A stretch of DNA of 64,000 nucleotides from Chrysoperla carnea (taxonomy: Eukaryota; Arthropoda; Insecta; Neuroptera; Chrysopidae): assembly GCF_905475395.1 (NCBI RefSeq), contig NC_058339.1, positions 5,278,001 through 5,342,000 on the forward strand, in the 5' to 3' direction. The notes beneath the pieces were generated by a model. It was not told where the DNA came from. It did not search any database and worked only from the letters and a program-made list of their open reading frames with translations. Position numbers and translations under genes: made by a program. Below are positions 338 to 17,400 of this stretch, in pieces. How positions within the stretch are numbered: the stretch's first letter is position 1; each line of letters begins with the position of its first letter.

Positions 338-912
338 AGTAATGGATAACAGTAAAATTGTGGAATTACCAATAATTGATGATGCCATAAAAGATATAAA
401 CATTACTCCTCATATGTTGGGAGAATTAAAACAAAATAAAATACTTTACAGTGATGATCTGATGGAAAATGCTGGAAAAACTTTATTGAAATCAAATCAT
501 TACAACTATAAACATTTATCAGTGTACGGATCATGGAATTCTAAAATTTCAGACATTGATTATGATTACAAAGTAGTATTTTTAAAAACTACCACACCAA
601 ATAAAACATTTTGGTCAATTATTATAATAATTAAAGATGGTGAAAGCATATTTTACTATTGTAACAATCAAAAGTTTAGAAATCAAAAAGATTTCGAAGA
701 AAATATCCAATATTGTTGTCCAATGTATGGAGAATGTGGTTTATATGCATTGGTGTATTTATGTAAAATTGTTTTGAAAAATATGAAAAAAACAATGAAA
801 AATCGTTTAGAAACGACGCTGGGCGTTAATAAAATTAATGAAAATAAAATTACTGCAAATGATGTGGATGATATTCGAAATAATGATCAAACAAATGTTA
901 AACAAATTAAAG
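338..912 (+). CDS. SecA-like gene, exon 1: Cys-protease-like N-terminal segment
   Basis: The exon follows an acceptor at 336-337 and ends at G|GTATGA (phase 1). The ATG at 342 is the first in frame. Residues about 85-150 (TFWSIIIII, then YGECGLYALVYL) recall the His-Trp strand and the NCG-type catalytic-Cys helix of CE-clan (C48/ULP-like) peptidases. The Cys is present (C132), but Phe90 stands where the catalytic His is expected. If the resemblance is real, the domain is probably not an active protease. The assignment is tentative. Confidence 0.65.
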
Positions 913-3900
913 GTATGAATTTTATATTCGCTCCATGCATGAGTTTTATTATAGGGAGTTACTATAGTCACGACACTCTACTCTAATAATATAATTGAAT
1001 GGGTGGATATATAGAATTTAATTGACTGCTGAATTCTTTCCTTCCTGAATAAGCTTATATAAACGAACGTAAAAGCTCTTTACCAAATTTCGATCTGAGA
1101 CCTCATTTCCGAGATAAATAACCAAAAAAAACAATAAATAGAAATATAAGAAATATAAGGATTAGGATGCTATATTTTCTACAAAATTTTAATAAATTAA
1201 TATGTTAAAACTAGCTGTGCCTCGCGCGTTACCCGTGATAAAAAGAGAGTGGTGTTACCCTATCCTTATTTAGCTATCCCCTCCACTTACTATGCTCCTT
1301 TATCAGACGGACGGACGGACGGACAACCGAAAATGGACTAATTAGATGATTCTATGAACATCTATACCAAAATTTTTTTCGTAGCATCAATATTTTTAAG
1401 CGTTACAAACTTGGAACTAAACTTAATATACTATGTATATTTCATATATACATAGTATGATGATTTAGGTACTAACATATTTTTTAAATCGGCAGATACA
1501 ATTTGGAAGCAATTGCATCAGGAAATGGTATCAACTATTAATGAAAAAACCTTATTTGTATCACAAAATAAAGAATTTATGAAAGAATACCATGAATTAA
1601 TAAACATTGCTTTAGAATTCAAACAAGAAAACAATATTAATCAACAATATATTGAAATGTTATCAAAACCAAAAACTATTGAACAGGATCAATTAAAACA
1701 AAAACTTATTGATGATTTAAAAAATATGCAAAATTTAATAAAAAAAGGTAACGATGAAAATCAAATAACACAATTTTCAATTAAAGAAAAATATCCAAAA
1801 GAAATTCAATCAATCACAACAGTATTGAATATTGTTAATAATTATGGTGATGATGAACGTCTAATTAAAATGAAGGAAATATGTGAGAAATTATCGTTAC
1901 CAGCTGAAAAAGTCACGGAATATCTTCAAGTGACATCGTCATCAAAAGAAGATTCAAATTCATCGTCACGACCAGTTATCAATAATGACATACCGATTAA
2001 AAATACTTCGTGTTGTAAATCTAGTTTAAATCAAGTAAGTATCATTTCACGCGTGAAAAACATTTATCACAAAATGGTTCAATTATCCAAATATCTTAAG
2101 GACGCTCCCAAAAAAATTATTGAGTGAAAATATTTGCGACTTACGTTTCAAATTTTGAGGGTGGATTTTCGCCAACCTTTCGTTAACTTTATAGACTTCT
2201 TCAGAGCTCTAATTGAAATCAATAATGATTTCTCGATATATTTGGGTATTTTGGCTTGCTCTAACACCTTAAGTCCCATGTATATTTAAATAAATTGGCA
2301 AAAAATTACACGTTTTTAAATGCACTTTGTCTAGGATGAAAACGATTGTATTATCAAGAAATTGGAGGATTTAATTCACGAAATCGAAGAGTGTGAAATA
2401 AATAAAAATTATAAATTGTGTAAAAATAATGAATTAAAATCAAAATATGATAAATTTAAAATATATTGGAGCGATTGGAAAGAAAAACACATACAAGATA
2501 TTAAAGTATGGATTAATGATTTAGAGCGTCGATCAATGATAATGGATGATCCCCCATACTTTTATGAAGCTTTAGCCGTTTTAAACAGAGCTTTTGAATT
2601 ATGTATTGGACATGCACTACGTTTACCACAAATATTAGCATTAATATTATTTAATCAAAAATCATCAGATTCTGGTAAGTAAAAGAAATTTGCCTCACTT
2701 TTACTTGCAATCTCACTTTTTAACAAATCATTCCTTTTAACAGGATTATTATGTCAAATACAGACTGGGGAAGGCAAAACATATATTATTGCAGCTACAG
2801 CCATTTTGAAAATATTATTAGAAAACAAAAATTCAATTGATATAATAACAAGTAATAATGTGTTGGCAAGACATGCTGTATCTGCAACCAAAAATTTATA
2901 TCAATTATTTAATATCACAGTTGATATCAATACGGAATTCAAAAGTGATCAAAAAGCTTGTTATAATGCAAACGTTGTGTATGGTTCCATGTCTGATTTT
3001 CAATTTGATTTTCTTAATCATGATTTTAATGGATTAGGTATGTTATGGGAATTCATTTTGTAGTTAAATAGGTAGTTTAGGTTAGGTTAGAGTGGCTGTC
3101 CTGGGGTGGGACGCACTTAGACCATAGGGTCCGTTGTGATACCGTAAATGGGTTGGCCCATCCCCGGCCACTACTCCATGAACCACCTTACTTTAGGTCG
3201 GAGAGGTCGTCAAAGAGAGGCTGGCTCAAGTAAGTCCATCTCCTCATGACAAGAGGTGGGCAGTGACAGAGAAGATGAGACATTGTCTCCTCCTCGTCAT
3301 CACTGTGACAGCTCCTGCAGTAGTCGTGATACACTGCCAGGCCTAAACGTTCAGCATGCTTTCCGCCCAGCCAGTGTCCTGTGATAGCCGCAACAACTTT
3401 GCGAACAGAGGGCCTTGGAAATGATATGAGAACTTCGGGACGCCTGCGATTGTACTCAGCTAGACCATATCTGTCTTGTAGTACCACAAGTACGTTCTTC
3501 CCTCCATCTAAGATTGTCCTTTTTCAGAATATCCTCTTTCAGGAGTAACTTGCAGTTCGCAAATGGAACTCCGGATGCCTAGGGTAGCTCGCTTAAAATT
3601 ACTTAATCTGTATGTGTAAAAGAAAATTCGATTTTTATTCCATTTTAGGTACACGAATGAATCGTAAGTTTGAGTATGTAATTTTAGATGAAGTAGATAA
3701 CATGCTAATTGATAATGGTGGTAATATTGCTAAATTAGCTGAAATATTCCCTGGCATGGAAAATTTAATTTACATATACATTGAAATCTGGAAAGATTTA
3801 AACATATTTATAAACAAAACATTCGATGACATTAACATTAAACCTGATAAAGAACTTATTCAATGTAAAATAAGCGAATGGAAGAATTTAATTCAAAATA

Positions 3901-6900
3901 AAATTGAAAATAATATAGAATCATTTTTAATTCCATTACATTTAATGGAATATGTGCAAAATGTACTTCCAAAATGGATTGATAATGCAATTTATGCTAA
4001 ATATGATTGTATTGAAAATATCCATTATGTAATACAAACAGAAAATAAAGATGGTAAGTCCAAAATGATGTTTTAAGGCGAATAAGTTTTCAATTCGTCC
4101 ACAAATGCTTTTATTTAATCAGAACCTAGAAAGTTTTAAGGGTGATGCGAAATTTTTTTTTATGGCGTCATCTTGTGACATCTACTTGAAACATTTACAT
4201 TCTAAAGACCGTTTGACACTACGGATTAGGTATCTGATTCTAAAGGTCAGATGACACTACAGCAGGCTAACTTTGGTTTGTCTCTGAACTTTAGTTTTCG
4301 AATACCTGTTACTAAATAAAAGCAATTGTTTACAAACATTTTCGCTACAAGTAGATAAAAAGACACGATTAATTAACATAGATTATGAACAAATAATTGT
4401 ACCGGTTGATTATACAAACACTGGCGTGACTTTAAAAAATACAATGTGGTCACATGGTCTACATCAATTTTTACAATTAAAACATAATTTACAAGTTCAT
4501 GCGGAAAATTTAACAAGTTGTTGTATATCAAATTATGCGTACATACGAAAATATGGCACTAATTTAATTGGTTTAACTGGCACTATTGGTGGAGAGGGGG
4601 AACAAGATTTACTTAAAGCTATTTATCAAGTTGATTTTATATCGCTGCCAACATTTAAGGTAAGAATTTTAGAAAATAAACAGGGTATTTAATTAAATAA
4701 AAGTATATTTAACTATTTAAATATATTTCAGGTAAAACAATTTGAAAAGTATCCAGAAATAATTGTACCCGACATAGAATGGCTTGATAAAATAATCGAA
4801 CAATGTTTTTATATGTTGTTACAAAAGCGTGCTGTGTTAGTTGTATGTTTAACAATCGCTGATGCTAACGATGTTTATAACGAATTAATTCAATTAAAAT
4901 CAACATACATCGATCTAAATCCAACAATTCAGAAATATCTAAGTGAGAATGAAAGTCACGTAACAGATGAATTTATTGATTCTGGTACAATTATTGTTGC
5001 AACAAATATTGCTGGACGTGGTACAGATTTTAAAACAACCAAACAATTAGAAGATCATGGTGGGTTACATATATGTGTTACGTTCTGTCCAGAAAGTAAA
5101 CGGGTTCAAGATCAAGTCTTTTATCGTACTTCACGACAAGGAAATAAAGGCTCAGCAGGTGTGTTACATAATATTTAAAATAATTATTATTATTGGGTTT
5201 AAATTTATTCATTTTCAAAGTTTAATAGTTTAATAGATATTGAGAACTAAGTGTTGCCAACTGGCGACTATAATTTGTACTAATTAAAACAGGTTAAGTT
5301 TTCAGTAGTTCCAATTTAGACCACCAGGGTACTTACTATTTATCGAAATATTCTGGAGTTCTCATTTATTATCTTTGATAAATAATATTTACAGGTTTAA
5401 TATTATCAGAGAGTCAAGTAGCAGATATTATGAAAGATGATAGGGATTACGAATTTCATGAAATATCACAACGAATTCATGACGATGAATTGGTTTACAT
5501 GGAGTATTTAAAAACTTTTAAATCCAAAGAATTATATTTTGAAGATTGTTTATTTAATTTATTTTCAAGTTTATACAAACAAGCGCGTACAAATAAATTA
5601 AATGTATTTGCACGGAAAGACCTTAAAGAATATTGGGCGTTTTGGTTTGAAAAACAAGAATTTCTAAGTATAACAAATTTTGAAAAAATTGAAAATGAAG
5701 CGCTCGAATTATTTGAATTATTTCAAGAAGATGATAAAATTCAAGAAATTTTAAAAGGTCATATTGAACATAATCCATATTATGATATACATCGAGCGCA
5801 TGCTTATATATCTGAACAAAATTTAGCAAAAGCCGAAGAATGCTTAAATAATTCATTGGAAATGACTAATGATACATTAAGCGAAGCACATTATTTATTG
5901 TTTGAAGTATCAATGGAACGCGGGGGTGTTGTAATGAATCAAATTAAAGATATATTAACAAATGTTGGTAAGTATCGAAAATTCGAACTAACCCTCGTGA
6001 ACTCGCTAACAATTTGAATGAATTGAGGAACTAAATGGAAGACAAAAAGTTTCTTCTGTGCTCCCTCTAAATAAACTGATTACAAATTGAAGTGATCAAC
6101 TTAGCTCTCGGATCCTTGAATCATCAAAATTCCAATCGAGGATAGTCTATGAATGCTTCGAGGAGCTAAATCGTCTGACACTGAATAACACAGTCAGTCT
6201 GATCTGGGTGCCGGGCCGTCCTGTGTTAAAAAGAATGAAACAGCGGACTTCTGTCAAATGCCCCTTTTATCTGAGCCTGTTATTCACATAGCAAAATGTT
6301 CCATAATTTACCGAATCAAGGAATGGCTACGACAAGCCTATCTTGATTACTCTTTACGTAGGGCATGCGACAGGCCAAACTGTGTATAACCACAGATAAA
6401 TCATTCGACTGTGCCCGCCTGAAACTTATTAGAGCACAGTTGAAAAGGGATGGGTGATGGGACTCTTAATAGGACACTGTCGAAACATAGCATTTATCAA
6501 TCCTGGAAGAGATCCCGCCGGAGAAGTTGTGGGCTTTTGACGTGGCGCCTGGCCTAGACAAAGTCCTATAGATTCATCTGATTAAAACAATATCTTTCAT
6601 CCGAAGTCATCTCGCCTTCGGATAACAGATTGTTCTCAAAGAGAGAGTACAAAGGACTCCTTTGTCTAGGTGTCACATTTTTTAATTTAGGAATTAGCAG
6701 AATAGAGAACAGAGTATGCGTTAAATAGAAGTTTATAAGAATTAAATTATCGTTTTAGGTCTTGGATATTTAATTAAAATGAATAAAGATTCAGAATACA
6801 AGAACAAGTGTATGGAACATCTTGAAAAAGCACGTAGCATATTAATTAAAGAAATTCAATTTATTGAAAATTATTTTAATTGTGATGAATTTTATAAAAC

Positions 6901-9122
6901 TTTTAATGGTTCACTCGATAAAAACTTGTTTATCAAACATTTACACAGTAAATTAATTTGTTTAAAAATGTTTCATGAAAATATTAATCAGATTCATTAT
7001 ACGATTCAAAAGAATGGGGATAAAGATTTGATGATTACAATGAAAAATGATGATATACAAACGGTATTAGAAAGCGAACCGGAAACTGTTAAGACAATCA
7101 AAAAAGACTTTATTAACAAAGAAGAAACAAATAATTTAAGTTTGCGTGGATTAAAATGTTTATTTAATGTTGGCGAAATTAAAACCGTTCCCAAAGAAGT
7201 TTTTATTGCTTCTGGCTTACAAATTGCCTTAGGTTGTGCTGCTTTGGGTGAGATAAATATTTATATATTGAAATTATTACCGCTACCTATGCTAAAAATC
7301 ATGCCGATCCTTGATCTATGAAAAATTAAAACAAATCTGTCCCACGGGAATCATACATTTTACCGGGATAAAGAGTATCCTATGTGCTATTCCAAATTTC
7401 ATCCAAATCCGTTCAGCCGTTCTGACGTCCATCCATTCAAAATACGATCACTGAATTATTTTATTTTTTTATAGGTTTAGGATGGTTCTTTCCATTTATA
7501 ATGGAATATGCTCAAACAATTGCTGCGACTTTAATAGCAGAAGGTATTCTTGATATCATCATTTGTTTAATTGGTGGTAAAATTGCATTCGATTGGAACT
7601 ACTTTAAATCCAAATTAATTACTTTTGGTATAACGGCTGTCTCATTGGGAATAACAGCTCTTGGTGGATATATAAATAAATTAATATCAAAAGCGCGTTC
7701 ATTTTTAAAAATGGACAATTTAATGAGCTTAATCAAAATGGTACCAGGTGTTGACTCCATAATGAATGGTATTGGGAATGTTTTACAGAAAGCACAATCT
7801 TTTATTAATTTGGCGAATAAAAACTTTATACCTAATGGGATTTTATCAAAACCATTATTAAATACACTCTGGCAGGCATGTAATAAAGTTGGACGATTTT
7901 TAATTGTTTCCAATATAATTGATACAAACATACAAAATCGTTTTCTTAAAGGTTAGTACAGGAAAACACAGAGGAGTATTCATACCGATTTTTCTTTTTA
8001 ATTAAAAAAAAAGCCGGACACTCCTTGGGCGGCATGCATGCTGAACGCCTGGGCCTGATAGCTTATCACGACTAGTGCAGGAGCTGTCACATTGGGGGGG
8101 GGGAGACAATGCCTCATCTTCTCTGTCACTGCCTAGCTCTTGCCATGAGGAGATAGACTTACTTGAGTCATCCTTTCTTTGAAGACCTCTCCGATCTAAA
8201 GTCCGTCGACGTCAAAGCACTCCTGCTGTTCTTAAACGGATCCAAATGATTCTTGGAGTGGTGGCCAGGGATGGGCCAATCCTTTTTCGGTATCTCAATG
8301 AACCCTATGGTCTAAGTGTGTCCCACTCAAGGACAGCTACTCTAACCTACATGTATTGGTTTGCTGTATCTTGGCTTTGGCCCGAAAAATGTAGACGACC
8401 AGTCTATTTATAGTTAAATAATTTTTTTTTTTACTTTATTAGGTTGGGAAACATTATATGAGGCTATAAAAGGAATTGTATCAACAGACTTTATTGGTAA
8501 ATTAAACACAACCATTTTAACAATTTTAAGTTGTAAAAAAGGATATGATTTATTAATGAGCAAGCTTGGATCATTGAACGTTTTAAAATATATTCAAACA
8601 AACGATTTAAAACAAATCGTGGAAAAAGTTATAATTTACAGTGATATGTGGGAATTATGTGCAGCATTTTTTGGTAGTATCAGTTGTATTGTTGAAAAAT
8701 GTACACCATTTTTAAAACAATTAAAATTAGAAATTGAAAATACTTTGAAAACTATAACTAATGACACGAAAGATACTGATAATTATGATGAAAATTATTT
8801 AAATGATGGACAAATACGAATTACTGAAACAATATTTAACGCAGTACAAAATAAAGTCAATTATCATATGAGTACAAATATACGAAAACGTAAAAATAAT
8901 GCGGATAATGAAAATATGGATGGAGAAGAAATTTTAAAACAAACAAATCCATACGATGTTTTAAATTTGAAACAAACATGTGTAAATATTGATGATGTTC
9001 ATCAAGCTTTTACTAAATTATCATTACAATATCGTCCTGGTACTGGTACCGATCAAGAATCGTCACAAGTTTTTGAAAAAATACAATGGGCTTATAATGA
9101 AATTAAAAATAACTTGATTTAA
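338..9122 (+). CDS. Spliced gene for a SecA-type ATPase motor protein (about 1,700 aa visible)
   Basis: Eleven exons join with matching phases and no internal stop: 338-912, 1496-2034, 2335-2674, 2744-3037, 3649-4053, 4352-4659, 4732-5158, 5395-5967, 6759-7247, 7475-7951 and 8443-9122. From the ATG at 342 this gives 1,700 residues. Residues about 455-965 follow the order of bacterial SecA: helical lead-in, GEGKT Walker A (492-496), DEVD Walker B (595-598), a GLHQ...HAEN stretch like SecA's preprotein-crosslinking/NBD boundary, LTGT (791-794), TNIAGRGTDF (910-919) and RTSRQG (951-956). The residues that bind and hydrolyse ATP in SecA are present, so activity is plausible. Before the motor lie a Cys-protease-like segment and a helical region; after it, TPR-like helices, a hydrophobic region and a degenerate J-like domain. 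SecA drives protein export in bacteria and chloroplasts; its role in an animal cell is unknown. Bacterial origin by horizontal transfer is inference. Upstream exons outside the window are possible. AATAAA signals lie at 9142 and 9164. Confidence 0.85.
1298..1458 (+). repeat. Dispersed repeat A, copy 1 (intron of SecA-like gene)
   Basis: It begins with ACGGACGGACGGACAACCGA and ends in CATATATACATAGTAT. Related copies lie at 24766-25133, 29663-29719 plus 30291-30392, 34431-34550, 56366-56770, 57110-57233 plus 57686-57719, and 63690 to the window end. No coding content was seen. It could be the end of a larger transposon. Confidence 0.75.
1496..2674 (+). CDS. SecA-like gene, exons 2-3: helical region leading into the motor
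   Basis: Exon 1496-2034 starts after GGCAG and ends at CAA|GTAAGT (phase 0). Exon 2335-2674 starts after GTCTAG and ends at CTG|GTAAGT (phase 1). Residues 191-370 are charged and probably helical or coiled-coil, ending in a Ser-rich stretch. The end of exon 3 (YEALAVLNRAFELCIG, then LRLPQILALILFNQ) matches the pattern of the SecA segment just before Walker A, where the region binding the adenine lies. Confidence 0.75.
2744..3037 (+). CDS. SecA-like gene, exon 4: Walker A (NBD1)
   Basis: The acceptor TTTTAACAG precedes the exon and the donor G|GTATGT follows (phase 1 at both ends). It encodes QTGEGKT, which is SecA-type rather than the usual DEAD-box form. It continues with IDIITSNNVLARHA and NVVYGSMSDFQFDFL, in the order of SecA VTVNDYLA and ITYGTNNEFGFDYL. 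Confidence 0.88.
3075..3600 (-). mobile_element. LINE 3' fragment (ORF2 C-terminus) in SecA-like intron 4
   Basis: The reverse strand reads RPSVRKVVAAITGHWLGG, followed by CRSCHSDDEEETMSHLLCHCP. This is the Cys/His C-terminal region of non-LTR retrotransposon ORF2 in the Jockey/R1/I group. The fragment is 5'-truncated and ends in a 3' UTR with the tail TAACCTAACCTAAAC. A related copy lies in opposite orientation at 7990-8355. Confidence 0.85.
3649..4053 (+). CDS. SecA-like gene, exon 5: Walker B (DEVD)
   Basis: The exon starts after CATTTTAG, completing a split Gly codon, and ends at GATG|GTAAGT. YVILDEVDNMLID matches the SecA Walker B motif including the following LID. The remainder falls where SecA has its preprotein-crosslinking domain but is divergent in sequence. 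Confidence 0.88.
4352..5158 (+). CDS. SecA-like gene, exons 6-7: NBD2 with LTGT, TNIAGRGTD and RTSRQG
   Basis: Exon 4352-4659 begins after CTACAAG, a weak acceptor that is nevertheless the one restoring frame. It holds GLHQFLQLKHNLQVHAEN and IGLTGTIGGEG, in the order of SecA GLHQAIEAKE...NQT and GMTGTA. Exon 4732-5158 holds ATNIAGRGTDF, GGLHICVTF and QVFYRTSRQGNKGS, matching SecA motifs V and VI. The two arginines of motif VI (R951, R954) are retained. Confidence 0.88.
5395..7247 (+). CDS. SecA-like gene, exons 8-9: post-motor helical region
   Basis: Exon 5395-5967 begins GLILSESQ, just where SecA continues with its SSRFYLS strand, then becomes an Asp/Glu/Lys-rich helical region. One stretch (AHAYISEQNLAKAEECLNNS) looks like a single TPR hairpin. 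Exon 6759-7247 continues the helical pattern and ends in a hydrophobic Ala/Gly-rich stretch. SecA's C-terminal helical scaffold would lie here, but the sequence is too diverged to name. Confidence 0.7.
6020..6690 (+). mobile_element. Degenerate LINE fragment in SecA-like intron 8
   Basis: The forward strand shows an RNase H-like VSLIWVPGRP, then VMGLLIGHCRNIAFI, with several stops and frameshifts. The same 3' region recurs at 39600-39975 (+) and 44830-45010 (-). It belongs to the same LINE group as the 3075-3600 fragment but is a different family. Confidence 0.75.
7475..7951 (+). CDS. SecA-like gene, exon 10: hydrophobic region
   Basis: The exon follows TTTTTATAG and ends at AAAG|GTTAGT. Two long apolar stretches can be seen: about WFFPFIMEYAQTIAATLIA followed by ILDIIICLIGG, and LITFGITAVSLGITALGG. 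They are compatible with membrane-inserting or buried amphipathic helices, and no bacterial SecA has them at this place. Function unknown. Confidence 0.7.
7990..8355 (+). mobile_element. LINE 3' fragment in SecA-like intron 10
   Basis: This is a plus-strand relative of the 3075-3600 fragment: GHSLGGMHAERLGLIAYHD-type coding followed by a CHC-type region, with stops, then the shared 3' UTR ending CTACTCTAACCTAC. The frame is broken, including by a run of G near 8095. Confidence 0.8.
8443..9122 (+). CDS. SecA-like gene, last exon: degenerate J-like C-terminus
   Basis: The exon starts after TTTATTAG and ends with TAA at 9120-9122. The last 58 residues (1643-1700; NPYDVLNL, then VHQAFTKLSLQYRPG, then FEKIQWAYNEI) follow helices I-IV of a DnaJ J domain. 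The essential HPD tripeptide is replaced by RPG, so stimulation of Hsp70 is unlikely. Two AATAAA signals follow the stop within 50 bases. Confidence 0.75.
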
Positions 9123-9230: not shown

Positions 9231-9659
9231 TACGGAAGCCTGAATGTCTCAATAGGTTTTTTTTTAAAGTATCTATCCACAAATATAAAACAAACTAATT
9301 CACTTTCAACAAGTGCACTTGTGACTTGTGGGACATTATGGAAACAAACCTTTTTGAAAATGTCAGTCGGTAATGACTATTCTTTAATTAGCCACTACCA
9401 AAACTGTCTGGAATTATTAATAATTGTATGTCCGGATTTAATGATAATGTTTATAATTTGTCTTACGTAGTTAGTTAAAAATTATAAACATTATCATTAT
9501 GAAAAATTATAATGTTTATAATTTGTCTTACGTAGTTAGTTAAAAATTATAAACATTATCATTAAATTTAATTATTATCATTAAATCCGGACATACAATT
9601 ATTAATAATTCCAGACAGTTTCGGTAGTGGCTAATTAAAGACACATTCAGGCTTCCGTA
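9231..9659. mobile_element. TIR/foldback MITE downstream of the SecA-like gene
   Basis: The terminal inverted repeats are TACGGAAGCCTGAATGT and its complement, with extended inner inverted pairing (GTCCGGATTTAATGATAAT on both sides). There is no coding sequence. A related fragment lies at 47955-48040. Confidence 0.8.
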
Positions 9660-11418: not shown

Positions 11419-14400
11419 ACATTAAACAATGTGTATAAGAAAGAGATACTATTACAAATAACCTTTAAAATTATCAAAAATTCTAAATTTAAAATATAAA
11501 TGAAATATGCATCACAAATAAATTAAATGCCTAAATTATCTAAATTCTAAATTTTTCAAACATATGATTAATTACAATGTTTTAGTTAATTCTTTTTTAA
11601 AACACTAGGACTCAATTATGTATTAGTGATATTTAAAACAAGTACATTACACAGGATCTCATTTGAAAATGTTACAGCATTATAAAATTTTTCTTTACTT
11701 TATACATAGGTATTTTTTTTTATCTTGGCATATACGTGAAACTCGAAAAAAAAGATTAATCGAAGGAAATTGGTTATTTTCGAAAATGGTTATTTTCAAA
11801 GGCACACATCTTATACAAAAATTGAATTAAATCTAAAACAGATTCAATTAAAACCTTACTCTGATTCATAACTGTCAAACATTTTAAATTAGAACGTTGT
11901 TCTTTATAAAAATGCAAACATTTTTTGTAAGCCGAATAGGTTAGACAGTAATTGATCGCAAATACAGTAGAATCTCGATAACTTAAACCTCGGTAACATA
12001 AAAACCTCTGTTACTTCAAAAAATACTTTGTTCCCTTCCCATCAGAGTCCAAAACCTTTATAACTTAAAATACGCAACCTCTATAACTTAAATAAATAAT
12101 CTCTGTATAGGCCCTCAAAACTACATAGAAACATGTACATACCTCTATATTAACTAGGGTACATAGAAACATGTACATACCTCTATATTAACCTTTACCT
12201 AACATAGACCCTTGATAATTTAAAACCTCTATAACTTAAAATATTTTGTGTTTCCCTTGGACTTTAACTTATCGAGGTTCTACTGTATTTAGATTTTTGC
12301 GCGTTTCTTCATTCCATTTGATCAAAAATTGTCTTTATAGAAAAACAGACCACTTTTATTCAAAAATTTTCCTCGAAGATTGTCTAGATTCCGCAGCAGT
12401 TATACAAATAATAATATCGATACAAAAATAAAGTTTCGAGTAAATCTTTTGAACCCGTTTTTGCCTAAATTTTATGGTTTGCGAAAAAATGTTTCGAAAA
12501 CAAATAGTTACCTTTTTCAATAAATAACAACTTTCTAATTTAAAATGTTCAGATATCTATTTATTGCCAGTGATGGAATCGAGTGATTTTTTCATTGAGT
12601 CTGAAACCTATGTGTTGCAATTTTGATAGATTAGAATGATTGATAAAAATCGAATATTTTGGGTTGATTGTAGGAACTTATTTTCGATTAGTGTATGCAT
12701 TCACATTAAATAAAGACAACGCACACATTGGGGATATTTTAAAATACCTTATTGACAATGGCATTCATCCCAGAAATCAATAATCATCTGTGTAAGTAAG
12801 AAGATTCATTTTATTAAAATATAAAATAAAAACATTTCTACTTTAGGTCGTTCAAACCAAAGTGGTACCGAACAAGAGAGAGTTCACATACAAATACATC
12901 TACATTATCTCTTGTTCGGTTCCACTTTTATTTGAACGACCTAAGAATAAATTTTTATACAAATAATAATTGAATACACACCTCTCTCTGTAATTTTCTT
13001 TTTTCTGTTTTTAATTCATCTTCAGCTCGTTCTGACGCTTCAGCTTCAGCACGATACCTTACAACTTGTGTTTCTAAACGAGCAACAGTTCCTTGTAAAG
13101 TTGCAATATCTTGCTCAGCTTTTTGTAACTTAAATTTATAATCTGCTAATTGTTTATTTGCTTCTCCTTAAAATTAAAAAAAAATAAAAATTATTAGTCC
13201 ATTTTATAGCCCTGGAGTCCCGTGGCAGAAATATTTTTTGCTAGGATTTTTTATTTTATACTAATATGACAGATTACAGTGAAACTTACTTTGTACATCA
13301 ATTACATCTAAATCACTAAAATATTCAGAGTCGGGTCCATTGTGCGTGATTGTACTACCAATTGTTGATGATGTGTTACTACTAGGTCGTCGTCTTCGTG
13401 ATTTATTTCGTTCTTCGTCTAATTCAATACGTAACGATCGTACTTGATCCTCTAATTCTTTTTTCTCTTCGATAAAACGTTTTAATCGCACATCTAGACT
13501 ACCTTCACCTGCTGATTCTAATAATTCTGCATTTTCTATACTAACTAATGCTTTCTTCGGTTTCATAACATTTGCATTCTCTGAAGCATCACCATTGCCA
13601 CCATTACTTGTATTATGATCGGGATCATCGTAACCATTTAAACCATTCTCTTCGCACACAACAATAACTAAACCTTTCTCAGCAATTAACACGTCACGTT
13701 CCTCTAATTGAGTTTTAACAAATACTAAGTCTTCTTTTAATTTGGCCGCCGCTCGTTTTAATTGTTCATGCTCCCGACATTTATCTCTATGTTCACGTTG
13801 TAATTGTATATGATCTTGTTCTAGATCTTCTAATTTATCTTTCAATAATTCTATTTGATATGTATATGATGCTTTATCATTATCTAATTGTGCATTTGCA
13901 ATCATTGCTTTCCGAAATTTCTCTTCTATTTCACGAAGTTCATGCTAAAAAAAATTAAGTTTATTTAAAACAAATGAAAAAAACAATTCTACAGTTCTGT
14001 TCTTCGAAATTATAAAAAGAAAAACTTCTTATTCAAACAATTTTCGATTAATTGCAGCTTTTCCTAAATAATTATAAAATACACTCACACGAACATCCCT
14101 TAAAGTTCCACTGTCTTCTAAGGAATCTTCTGAACTCCTCCGACTTGACATATAACTATTATTTGATAACATTGTATTCCTAGTTGATCCAGTTAAACGA
14201 ACAGTTGCTGCAGTTCTGGTTACGGGATCTATAAAAAGACGATTCTCATATTACTAACTGTACAATATAAAAATATTGCAATCACGAGCTTTTTTTGTTC
14301 CAATTCCGTACAATGAATAGTATAATAGGTTGGCTGATAAGTCCCCGGTCTGACACATAAATGGCGTCGCTAGTATTAAATGCATATTATTTTTATATAG

Positions 14401-17400
14401 TACCAACCTTCAAATGATTCGTGTCAAAATTTGACGTCTGTAAGTCAATTAGTTTGTGAGATAGAGCGTCTTTTGTGAAGCAACTTTTGTTATTGTGAAA
14501 AAAATGGAAAAAATGGAATTTCGTGTTTTGATAAAATACTGTTTTCTGAAGGGAAAAAATACAGTGGAAGCAAAAACTTGGCTTGATAATGAGTTTCCGG
14601 ACTCTGTATTTTTTCCCTTCAGAAAACAGTATTTTATCAAAACACGAAATTCCATTTTTTTCACAATAACAAAAGTTGCTTCACAAAAGACGCTCTATCT
14701 CACAAACTAATTGACTTACAGACGTCAAATTTTGACACGAATCATTTGAAGGTTGGTACTATATAAAAATAATATGCATTTAATACTAGCGACGCCATTT
14801 ATGTGTCAGACCGGGGACTTATCAGCCAACCTGTTATATGACAACTGTTGAAGTGTCAAGAGATCAAGAAATGAAGCGTCATATAAAAGTACATGACGCT
14901 TCCAATTATCTATAGCTTATATTTTGCACATGAACCTTCCAAATTATGCACAATCTACTCAGACCGTTTAAAGTATCTGAAAATAATAAAAAAAATTTAT
15001 AATTACCTGTATACATATCATAAACACGATCTGCATTCTCCTCTAGTTCACGTTGCTGACGTTCTAATTCACGCATTCGGATTTCACGAGCTTCAGCGCG
15101 TGCTTGTCTTTTTGCTGCTAACCGAGCTTCAGCCTAAAACAAATTAACATTCTATGAATATCAATACTTCATTAAACAATATATTTAAGGCATAGAAATA
15201 CGGCTTCAGTAAAAAAAAAAACGAATTTATACGTTTTTAGAAATTTTAAAGTTATGTGAGTTAGGTGAGGTTAGGTAAAAAATGTCACGAATAAAAAAAT
15301 GTTGAGAATTGCCCAAAATACAAAATCCTATAGTTTCATTTAAATGGTAAATAAAGAGAATGTGATGTCTGGAAGTAGGGTATTTCTGTCCGATCCAATG
15401 GGCGTAAATCGAAAAATCACCAAAACGCATATATATGACTTTGTTGAGTACATTCAAACAAACATTTTCCACCGGCTCCCATAAAAATCAGCTGACGAGG
15501 AATCAATTCCATGGTTAGACTATTCGTTGTGTGCGTAGTCATGGTAGGGACAATAAAATCGATGCCAGCGCTTTAAGTGAAAAATTTTGGAGTTAAAGGG
15601 GGCTGTTATGACTAATTTGCAATTCTTTACATGTTAATGTAATAGAAATGTCAAATTAAAATTATTGAAAAAGACGAATTAATTAAACTTAATGCATTAA
15701 AAATTGTGAAAATAAGAAATCAAATTGAACAAATATTATTTTTCAAATGTAAATTATCATAATTATTTATTTAAATTTGTGAGACAAGAATATTAAATTT
15801 TAAATGTAAGTCTTAAATGCAATCCATACAATTATATATGCATCCATACAATTGTATAATTAAAGTAGTGTATCGTTACCATAGAAACGAAACTCACGCA
15901 CGGAGCGAATATGTTTATTGCTAAGATATGATATGACAAATGGCATATCTTGCGTCATAAGTGCGTTTGATTATGCATTTGAGTTCGTACATCCATGAGT
16001 ATGAGAGAGTTATGTACATACAATGTGTATAAGAAAGATATACTATTATATACAAGCATATAATAGTATATTTTTCTTATACACATTGGATGTACTTACG
16101 TGCTCTCTCATCATACTCATGGATTAGTTTTCGAGAAAACCGATTTTAAAGTTACTAATTTAAGACGGACTATTATAATGTATTATAGAGAAACGACGGT
16201 AAAGTGACTAATTTAAGGTCTATGACTCGAGGTCCAAAAATGAAAGGCTCACAAAAAATTATCGTAATATTTATTATTTCTGATTATAATTTAATAAAAA
16301 TTATCGAATTAAGAAGTAAAATTTTTAACAAATTCGTTCCCTTCATAATTAAAATCATTTATATTAAAAAATTATACATTTAAGTGGAATAATAGGGAGT
16401 AAGTCAAGGTCAAATATTAATTAATAGGAAGCCGTTAAAAAATTTTCCTTTGTTTAAACTACAAAGTATAACGAAAAGAGGGGAATGACTATTAAAACCT
16501 CGTTAATGTGGCAATCTAAAATCTAGAATTTTCGATAATACAATTTATTTATAGAAGAAAATTACCCAACAAAATATGAAAATAATTATGACACAGGAAA
16601 ACAATTAAAAATTTTTCACAAGTCAAATGCACAGCTTTTGTTCTATTATCATCATTGATTAGGAAACATTTTTTTTTTTAACTTTCAACAAATTTATGCA
16701 TTCATGAAAAATTAACAGACCATATAATATAAAAGCCTACAATAAACCGGTCCCATGTATTGTTATAAGAGCGTCATATTGTTGATAAAATTCTATTGTT
16801 AGTAAAAATATGTTGTTGATAAAAATATATTTTATACATTCTTTTTCTAAACTTTTCTTTAAAATCATACTTTTACAAAATAAGTTTGTCCTCATAAATT
16901 ATTTTTTAATTTTAATACTTAAATAATAGGCAATATTCATGAATTTTTTCTGTTTTTCGCTTTAATAAAAGCTCATTCCTAGTTAGTTTCCCACATTAGT
17001 ATAGTCAACTTAAAAAAGACACGTATGCTATTATGGTTACAGAACGTATACGATTGACGAAAACAGCTTTACGCGACTATCTTATCTGATCTCTATCTAC
17101 TGCGATCAACCATTTGGGTGGCGACTTTGCAGCTCTATGGTATTATGTCTATGATTGACAATCGTCGGAAATATACCAAGAAAGAAATAAGAATATTGGT
17201 TAAAAATTTGATAAAACCAACGTACAGTATCATTACATTTATCCAAAAAATCTGAAAAATAATCTTTTCCATTCATATGATTCGATGAATCATTACTATG
17301 TTTATTCTTCTGATTAAATTCACCAACATGATCGTTTTTCGCCTCAATATATAACGAGGATCCATTATTATCACACTTTTTTGAATCGTGTCCATTAACA

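Follow-up and report, generated by a model that had tools for sequence, protein, structure and literature searches.

Genes with SecA domains have already been published from insects and Daphnia, and the excerpts of that report available here describe long SecA-domain proteins common to insects and Rickettsiales, together with a Wolbachia pair, wBol1_1091 and wBol1_1092, of 4,488 and 11,829 nt (PMC3639933). Elsewhere, as far as excerpts of the respective papers go, SecA-like helicase-related domains occur in Amoebophilus effectors (Zhang and others, PMC3482391), SecA-like ATPase domains are predicted in giant actinobacterial toxins, where they would aid secretion of the toxin (PMC8195603), a phage WO SecA has been placed in a predicted secretion class (PMC5062602), and Rickettsia bellii RickCE cleaves ubiquitin and, to a lesser degree, NEDD8 substrates (PMC4961225). 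Here we describe a SecA-like gene in a stretch of 64,000 nucleotides from Chrysoperla carnea (NC_058339.1, positions 5,278,001 to 5,342,000; the window), which sits in a 94-Mb contig (C3) of a 559-Mb assembly. We refer to the window gene as copy A and to its paralogue on the same contig as copy B. Copy A resembles the wBol1 pair and its insect relatives as a long SecA-domain protein, but it belongs to another subclade and has ten introns. We consider it fairly probable from sequence comparison that copy A is the host-domesticated descendant of a Rickettsiaceae-type SecA-like protein with a retained ATP-driven motor, and not of the symbiont's ordinary secA; this judgement covers identity, origin and retained motor jointly, and the biological role stands outside it. 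The gene was probably acquired from a Rickettsia-like symbiont. The case for domestication rests on two intact spliced copies, purifying selection, SecA-type ATPase motifs, a place in the Rickettsiaceae-type clade, and a resemblance that extends beyond the motor to a further region with a hydrophobic part; the gene combines a host chromosome, introns, an open frame and constraint.

Copy A (342-9122, plus strand) has 11 exons separated by 10 GT-AG introns, and its frame runs without a stop from the ATG at 342 to a TAA that ends at 9122. The eleven-exon open frame of about 1,700 codons proposed in the first-pass annotation holds, including its end, whereas the proposed start at 338 lies 4 bases upstream of the ATG. 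The length depends on the acceptor of exon 6: position 4351 gives 1,700 codons and position 4381 gives 1,690, and the latter, picked with copy B in view, fits B better and removes ten residues absent from B. Copy B (C3:5393320-5406045) starts 114,978 bases after the start of A and has 11 exons, with nine of the ten introns (1-9) shared in site and phase. We regard the exon model as beyond chance because B keeps a frame of 1,841 codons open with its first nine introns in matching places, and because alignment to intronless bacterial proteins is gap-free within two residues at junctions 3, 4, 6 and 7; gap-free support of this kind is limited to these junctions, and junctions 1, 2, 5, 8, 9 and 10 are without it. 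The tenth intron differs, with A and B interrupted about 20 residues apart, and is a gain or loss since the duplication. Intron 10 of A (7952-8442), which is missing at that site in B, has a host repeat inside, and exon 9 of B (C3:5402621-5403571) is lengthened relative to A by internal repeats.

The SecA ATPase motifs noted earlier are present in order and intact in copy A: GEGKT at residue 492, DEVD at 595, LTGT at 781, TNIAGRGTD at 900 and RTSRQG at 941. In Pfam, the 1,700-residue form matches SecA_DEAD (2.9e-31) and P-loop_SecA (2.8e-11), and DnaJ at 5.6e-6 (26.8 bits, below the cut-off of 27.8); exon 11 scanned alone reaches 29.3 bits against PF00226 (9.5e-7), above that cut-off. The Pfam scan did not find DnaJ in the matching piece of B, and the J-like end of both copies differs from DnaJ co-chaperones in lacking the HPD motif (RPG in A, RPN in B). 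Solved SecA chains match a motor profile built on two rows from the host and two from bacteria, the best of them at 1.5e-58. Copy A shares with canonical SecA the two-domain ATPase core, with the motifs of nucleotide-binding domains 1 and 2 (NBD1/NBD2), but differs from it in an identity of about 25%, a separate clade and other flanking regions. Pfam holds a wing/scaffold family; among Pfam matches up to E 1, copy A had none to the wing/scaffold families or to SecA_PP_bind, the preprotein cross-linking family.

Faint profile similarities suggest that the region encoded by exon 1 could be a degenerate CE-clan domain. It matches no Pfam family and, among PDB sequences, a single entry at E 0.18 only. 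When aligned with eleven bacterial domains, it received an hhalign score of 20.7, compared with at most 18.8 in 40 shuffles, but a probability of just 3.1%; with two bacterial domains the probability was 0.4%. A CE profile gave weak E values of 0.45 (A) and 0.13 (B) in a two-sequence search. By eye, A and B alike have Phe at the position of the expected His, and where A has Cys, B has Asn.

Searching plasmids with the motor, we obtained as the best match a protein of the Candidatus Megaera polyxenophila plasmid (CP113870; 38.7% over 96%, 1e-95), followed by Legionella geestiana (32.6%, from the listing alone) and Candidatus Bandiella (31.5%); the remaining matches among those listed are at 23.5-26% and mostly annotated SecA or SecA2. 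A scan of named genomes yielded at least 47 loci, led by Rickettsia, Rickettsiales, Legionellaceae and Parachlamydiales titles with many plain SecA further down, and viral contigs yielded 3 matching loci. From the order to which the Culicoides newsteadi Rickettsia genome belongs, 40 of the 261 sampled genomes match at 1e-30; 27 exceed 190 bits (read from the table by eye), and the other 13, at 106-169 bits with frames of 805-948 residues, look like ordinary SecA. Phage records were rejected as close relatives, all 20 showing 21-28% identity and the annotated ones being plain SecA.

The Rickettsiaceae-type proteins that group with A and B, of 1,026-2,870 residues, come from the Candidatus Megaira associated with Mesostigma viride (CP084576), from the Rickettsia of Culicoides impunctatus (G004) and from two further genomes, G137 and G015. 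In these and in the CP113870 plasmid protein the motor is about 37-48% identical to that of A. Residues 248-1489 of A align with a 2,500-residue frame of G137 at 35%, and the Megaira frame L048 aligns over residues 328-716 and 712-1411, on either side of a peptidase domain inserted in L048. Past the motor, a phmmer search of frames from six loci gave best E values of 5e-47 (residues 955-1305) and 3e-8 (residues 1306-1464). L048 and L109 share this region, its hydrophobic part included, and L108 shares it more weakly. The earlier view that the extra domains are unmatched in bacterial SecA is not supported for the post-motor part, which matches Rickettsiaceae-type SecA-like proteins, though not canonical SecA, up to residue ~1489; the N-terminus and the last ~200 residues show no significant match. 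These relatives differ from A in being bacterial and intronless and in having no significant match to its J-like end, and L048 differs further in its RickCE-type peptidase domains before and within the motor. Among seven bacterial or viral-contig SecA-like proteins with a Pfam motor, RickCE_cat is above cut-off in L048 and weak in L040 and L085, toxin-type domains occur in L039 and L051, and P0001, L037 and L047 carry neither type. No paper on Megaira and SecA was found in the literature search.

The phylogenies place A and B with these proteins. In a 36-row tree, A/B group with L089 (in G004), L093, L094 and L048 at 100/99, and the clade is unchanged in a 35-row tree without L048 (100/99); in both trees the Candidatus Megaera plasmid protein stands next to A/B and the Rickettsiaceae-type rows at 100/99. 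SecA-like rows split from canonical SecA rows at 100/100 in the second, 36-row and 35-row trees, and the first tree had a 24-row SecA-like group at 91/93. The first tree, which excluded 21 of the 52 bacterial or viral motor loci (partial, weakly aligned, near-duplicate or plain SecA), put A/B with L048 and L035 only, L089, L093 and L094 being not yet included. From the second tree onward, three intronless genes of this genome and L050, L056, L057, L069, L071, L073, L076 and L084 were left out; the 36-row and 35-row trees were also without L059, L060 and L065, and 8 of the 20 loci L087-L106 were kept out of the 36-row tree as duplicates or partial. The symbiont-type origin first suggested from the window alone agrees with these trees. 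A canonical secA fragment embedded in this assembly, 97% identical in protein to that of G015, also counts for symbiont origin; the corresponding values are 83% for G137, 82% for the Culicoides Rickettsia, 77% for Megaira and 63% for both G230 and G143.

Copies A and B are one of three SecA-like groups in this genome, the others being a spliced gene on contig C2 and three intronless genes (1,531, 1,492 and 1,497 residues). The C2 gene (L010; C2:19418000-19427999, minus strand) shows several exon-like stretches. Its motor is 62% identical to a protein of the Wolbachia-like genome G230, which it joins at 100/99 (second and 35-row trees) or 100/100 (36-row tree). Next to its secA-like genes, G230 has matches to records of the Wolbachia phage WO that are annotated as mutL and neighbours. 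The two secA-like genes adjoin, and each is spread over two neighbouring frames. Judged by lengths and neighbourhood, and not by comparison with the wBol1 sequences themselves, the pair resembles the wBol1_1091/1092 type. The shorter G230 gene is 35% identical to the intronless L011 over residues 46-1315 and 53% over 1314-1523. The intronless frames of about 1,500 residues lie at L011:4649-9250 (minus), L012:1999-6489 (plus) and L013:3320-7825 (minus), and a 5.4-kb block ~97% identical is common to L012 and L013. The ratio of nonsynonymous to synonymous divergence (dN/dS) is 0.42 for L011 versus L012; between the near-identical L012 and L013 selection is not shown (0.73, 95% 0.47-1.21). Given these additional genes, and those known from insects and Daphnia in the excerpted report (PMC3639933), the first-pass statement that SecA is absent from animals must be qualified.

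Rickettsiales might instead have received a SecA-domain family that was already old in eukaryotes. PMC3639933 makes this argument for the copies in Wolbachia, its excerpts describing a secA clade of eukaryotes from which bacteria apparently acquired genes twice. Our eukaryotic sampling, which consists of this genome alone, leaves room for that direction, but the SecA-like family is broad in bacteria, with the 27 high-scoring genomes above joined by Legionellales, Parachlamydiales and Bacteroidota loci, and A/B and the C2 gene fall in two separate places among bacterial rows. A single clade of A/B and the C2 gene, the latter sister of a Wolbachia-like row, is rejected (approximately unbiased test, p-AU 1.2e-42), so A/B do not group with the Wolbachia-type copies. 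We consider a eukaryotic origin of the family unlikely.

Purifying selection acts between A and B, and the first-pass expectation that the gene stayed under selection is borne out. By the method of Nei and Gojobori (NG86), dN/dS is 0.471 overall (0.405-0.555) and 0.440 without exons 6-7 (95% 0.371-0.516), with 0.295 in motor exons 3-5 (0.198-0.425), 0.381 in exons 1-2, 0.537 in exons 8-9 and 0.502 in exons 10-11. Exons 6-7 stand apart: the proportion of synonymous differences (pS) is 0.02-0.04 there and 0.18-0.59 elsewhere, and a block of 775 columns that includes intron 6 is 96% identical, compared with 72-88.5% in the remaining aligned exon blocks. Because of the low pS and of this block, gene conversion over motor exons 6-7 is the simplest reading. 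The alternative that A and B are decaying relics without function, their frames open only through recent origin, could draw on an overall dN/dS that is not low, on the values for exons 8-11, on the ~53% identity of exon 1 between the copies and on the loss of HPD in both. Yet frames of 1,690 and 1,841 codons are still open, and splice sites and ATPase motifs conserved, although dS outside exons 6-7 is about 0.55; the upper 95% limit of dN/dS for that part is 0.52, and we regard decay as very unlikely.

Several observations weigh against descent from a Rickettsiaceae-type protein followed by domestication. A topology in which the Rickettsiaceae-type rows form a group of their own, with A/B outside it, is rejected by a narrow margin only (p-AU 0.024; 0.047 without L048), the stem leading to A/B is long, at 0.89-1.09 changes per site, and the placement of A/B among bacteria may reflect the sampling of eukaryotes. 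The assignment of G015 and G137 to Rickettsiaceae is itself a sequence-based one, made from their secA genes, with which the embedded fragment shares 97% and 83% identity. Residues 1 to ~169 and 1490-1690 of A have no significant bacterial match. For exon 1, the AlphaFold model has a predicted local distance difference test score (pLDDT) of 43, and in a fold search nothing matched at E 0.001, the best 50 rows containing no protease of the CE clan. Finally, NG86 dN/dS between two converting paralogues is a coarse measure.

The host location and introns claimed at first reading are confirmed by the 94-Mb contig and by repeats within introns 1, 4 and 10 (Table 1); a query with the intron-4 element (3080-3600) gave 48 matches from the 40 scored of 4,147 first-look candidates in the assembly. 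Contamination of the assembly, or a misjoin of symbiont DNA, is suggested by the symbiont-like DNA that does occur near the end of contig C1, but copy A has introns with host repeats within them and a second spliced copy on the same contig, which makes this explanation extremely improbable. The C1 region itself (~138.36-139.38 Mb; L014, L033 and L034) contains many Rickettsiaceae-like stretches and is either a nuclear insertion or a misjoined symbiont contig. Its secA fragment is 95% identical in DNA to G015 and has an in-frame stop; copies of a repeated ~970-bp element and an adjoining frame with a reverse-transcriptase domain were also seen there. Within the window, palindromic long inverted repeats resembling miniature inverted-repeat transposable elements (MITEs) lie 3' of the gene (9381-9641 and 14321-14838), and the converging neighbour on the minus strand near 11.1-11.25 kb is presumably Lrrfip, which it resembles.

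Table 1. Features of copy A and associated repeats (window positions)
Feature	Position	Strand	Remarks
Exon 1	342..912	+	residues 1-190, N-terminal region; perhaps degenerate CE-clan (RickCE/Ulp1-like) peptidase domain, weak evidence
Exon 2	1496..2034	+	residues 191-370; bacterial similarity starts between residue 169 (L110) and residue 248 (L109)
Exon 3	2335..2674	+	SecA-like motor begins (Pfam)
Exon 4	2744..3037	+	Walker A TGEGKT
Exon 5	3649..4053	+	DEVD box
Exon 6	4382..4659	+	GLHQFLQLKH, LTGT; start 4352 with alternative acceptor
Exon 7	4732..5158	+	TNIAGRGTD, RTSRQG
Exon 8	5395..5967	+	post-motor region common to Rickettsiaceae-type proteins
Exon 9	6759..7247	+	post-motor region; shorter than exon 9 of B
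Exon 10	7475..7951	+	hydrophobic stretches, residues 1321-1339 and 1354-1372, also in L048 and L109
Exon 11	8443..9122	+	stop included; C-terminal region
J-like domain without HPD	8946..9104	+	RPG in A; PF00226 match
Conversion-like tract	4386..5160	+	96% versus B over 775 columns, intron 6 included
Repeat in intron 1	1300..1458		five further window copies, ~25.0, 30.3, 34.5, 56.7 and 57.2 kb
Host interspersed repeat, part, intron 4	3083..3379	.	query window 3080-3600
Inverted copy of intron-4 repeat, intron 10	8016..8349	.	intron absent at this site from B

If copy A is a domesticated Rickettsiaceae-type protein, symbiont DNA would have entered the nucleus, acquired introns and been duplicated, and the host gene would have lost CE-clan peptidase domains of the kind seen at the flanks or in the middle of some relatives. 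By analogy with SecA, the two RecA-like domains would pull on a polypeptide chain or clamp it with the help of ATP, the hydrophobic region would bring the motor to a membrane, and the J-like module at the C-terminus would serve binding; because it has no HPD, this module is probably not an Hsp70 activator. Use in dealing with intracellular symbionts or their proteins is a tentative suggestion from sequence, and we give about equal weight to an ordinary unfolding or chaperone role unrelated to symbionts, in which the motor threads host proteins and the J-like end binds them. The latter, a reading of use and not of origin, fits the intact ATPase motifs and the terminal J-like domain of A; it has against it the absence of HPD in both copies and the many relatives in bacteria titled endosymbionts, some of the seven scanned proteins carrying effector- or toxin-type domains. 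A more specific scenario, which we think quite unlikely, is that the host took over the motor part of a protein with which a symbiont acts on its host and made it a factor of its own for binding or jamming related symbiont proteins, with two spliced copies whose motor exons are kept alike by conversion, and with the Wolbachia-type SecA-like groups as parallel recruitments.

The novelty lies in a lineage of Rickettsiaceae type that has ten introns, was duplicated and shows signs of conversion; in the excerpts of open-access literature at hand, we recognised no report of a Rickettsiaceae-type, multi-intron insect copy. The locus would link an animal gene that is spliced and maintained with one particular set of symbiont proteins, the Rickettsiaceae-type SecA-like proteins, in a genome with two or more SecA-like genes that belong to different bacterial-type subclades. 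This makes animal reuse of symbiont proteins and the origin of introns in transferred genes testable, and the motor module of these little-studied proteins becomes open to study in an animal host.

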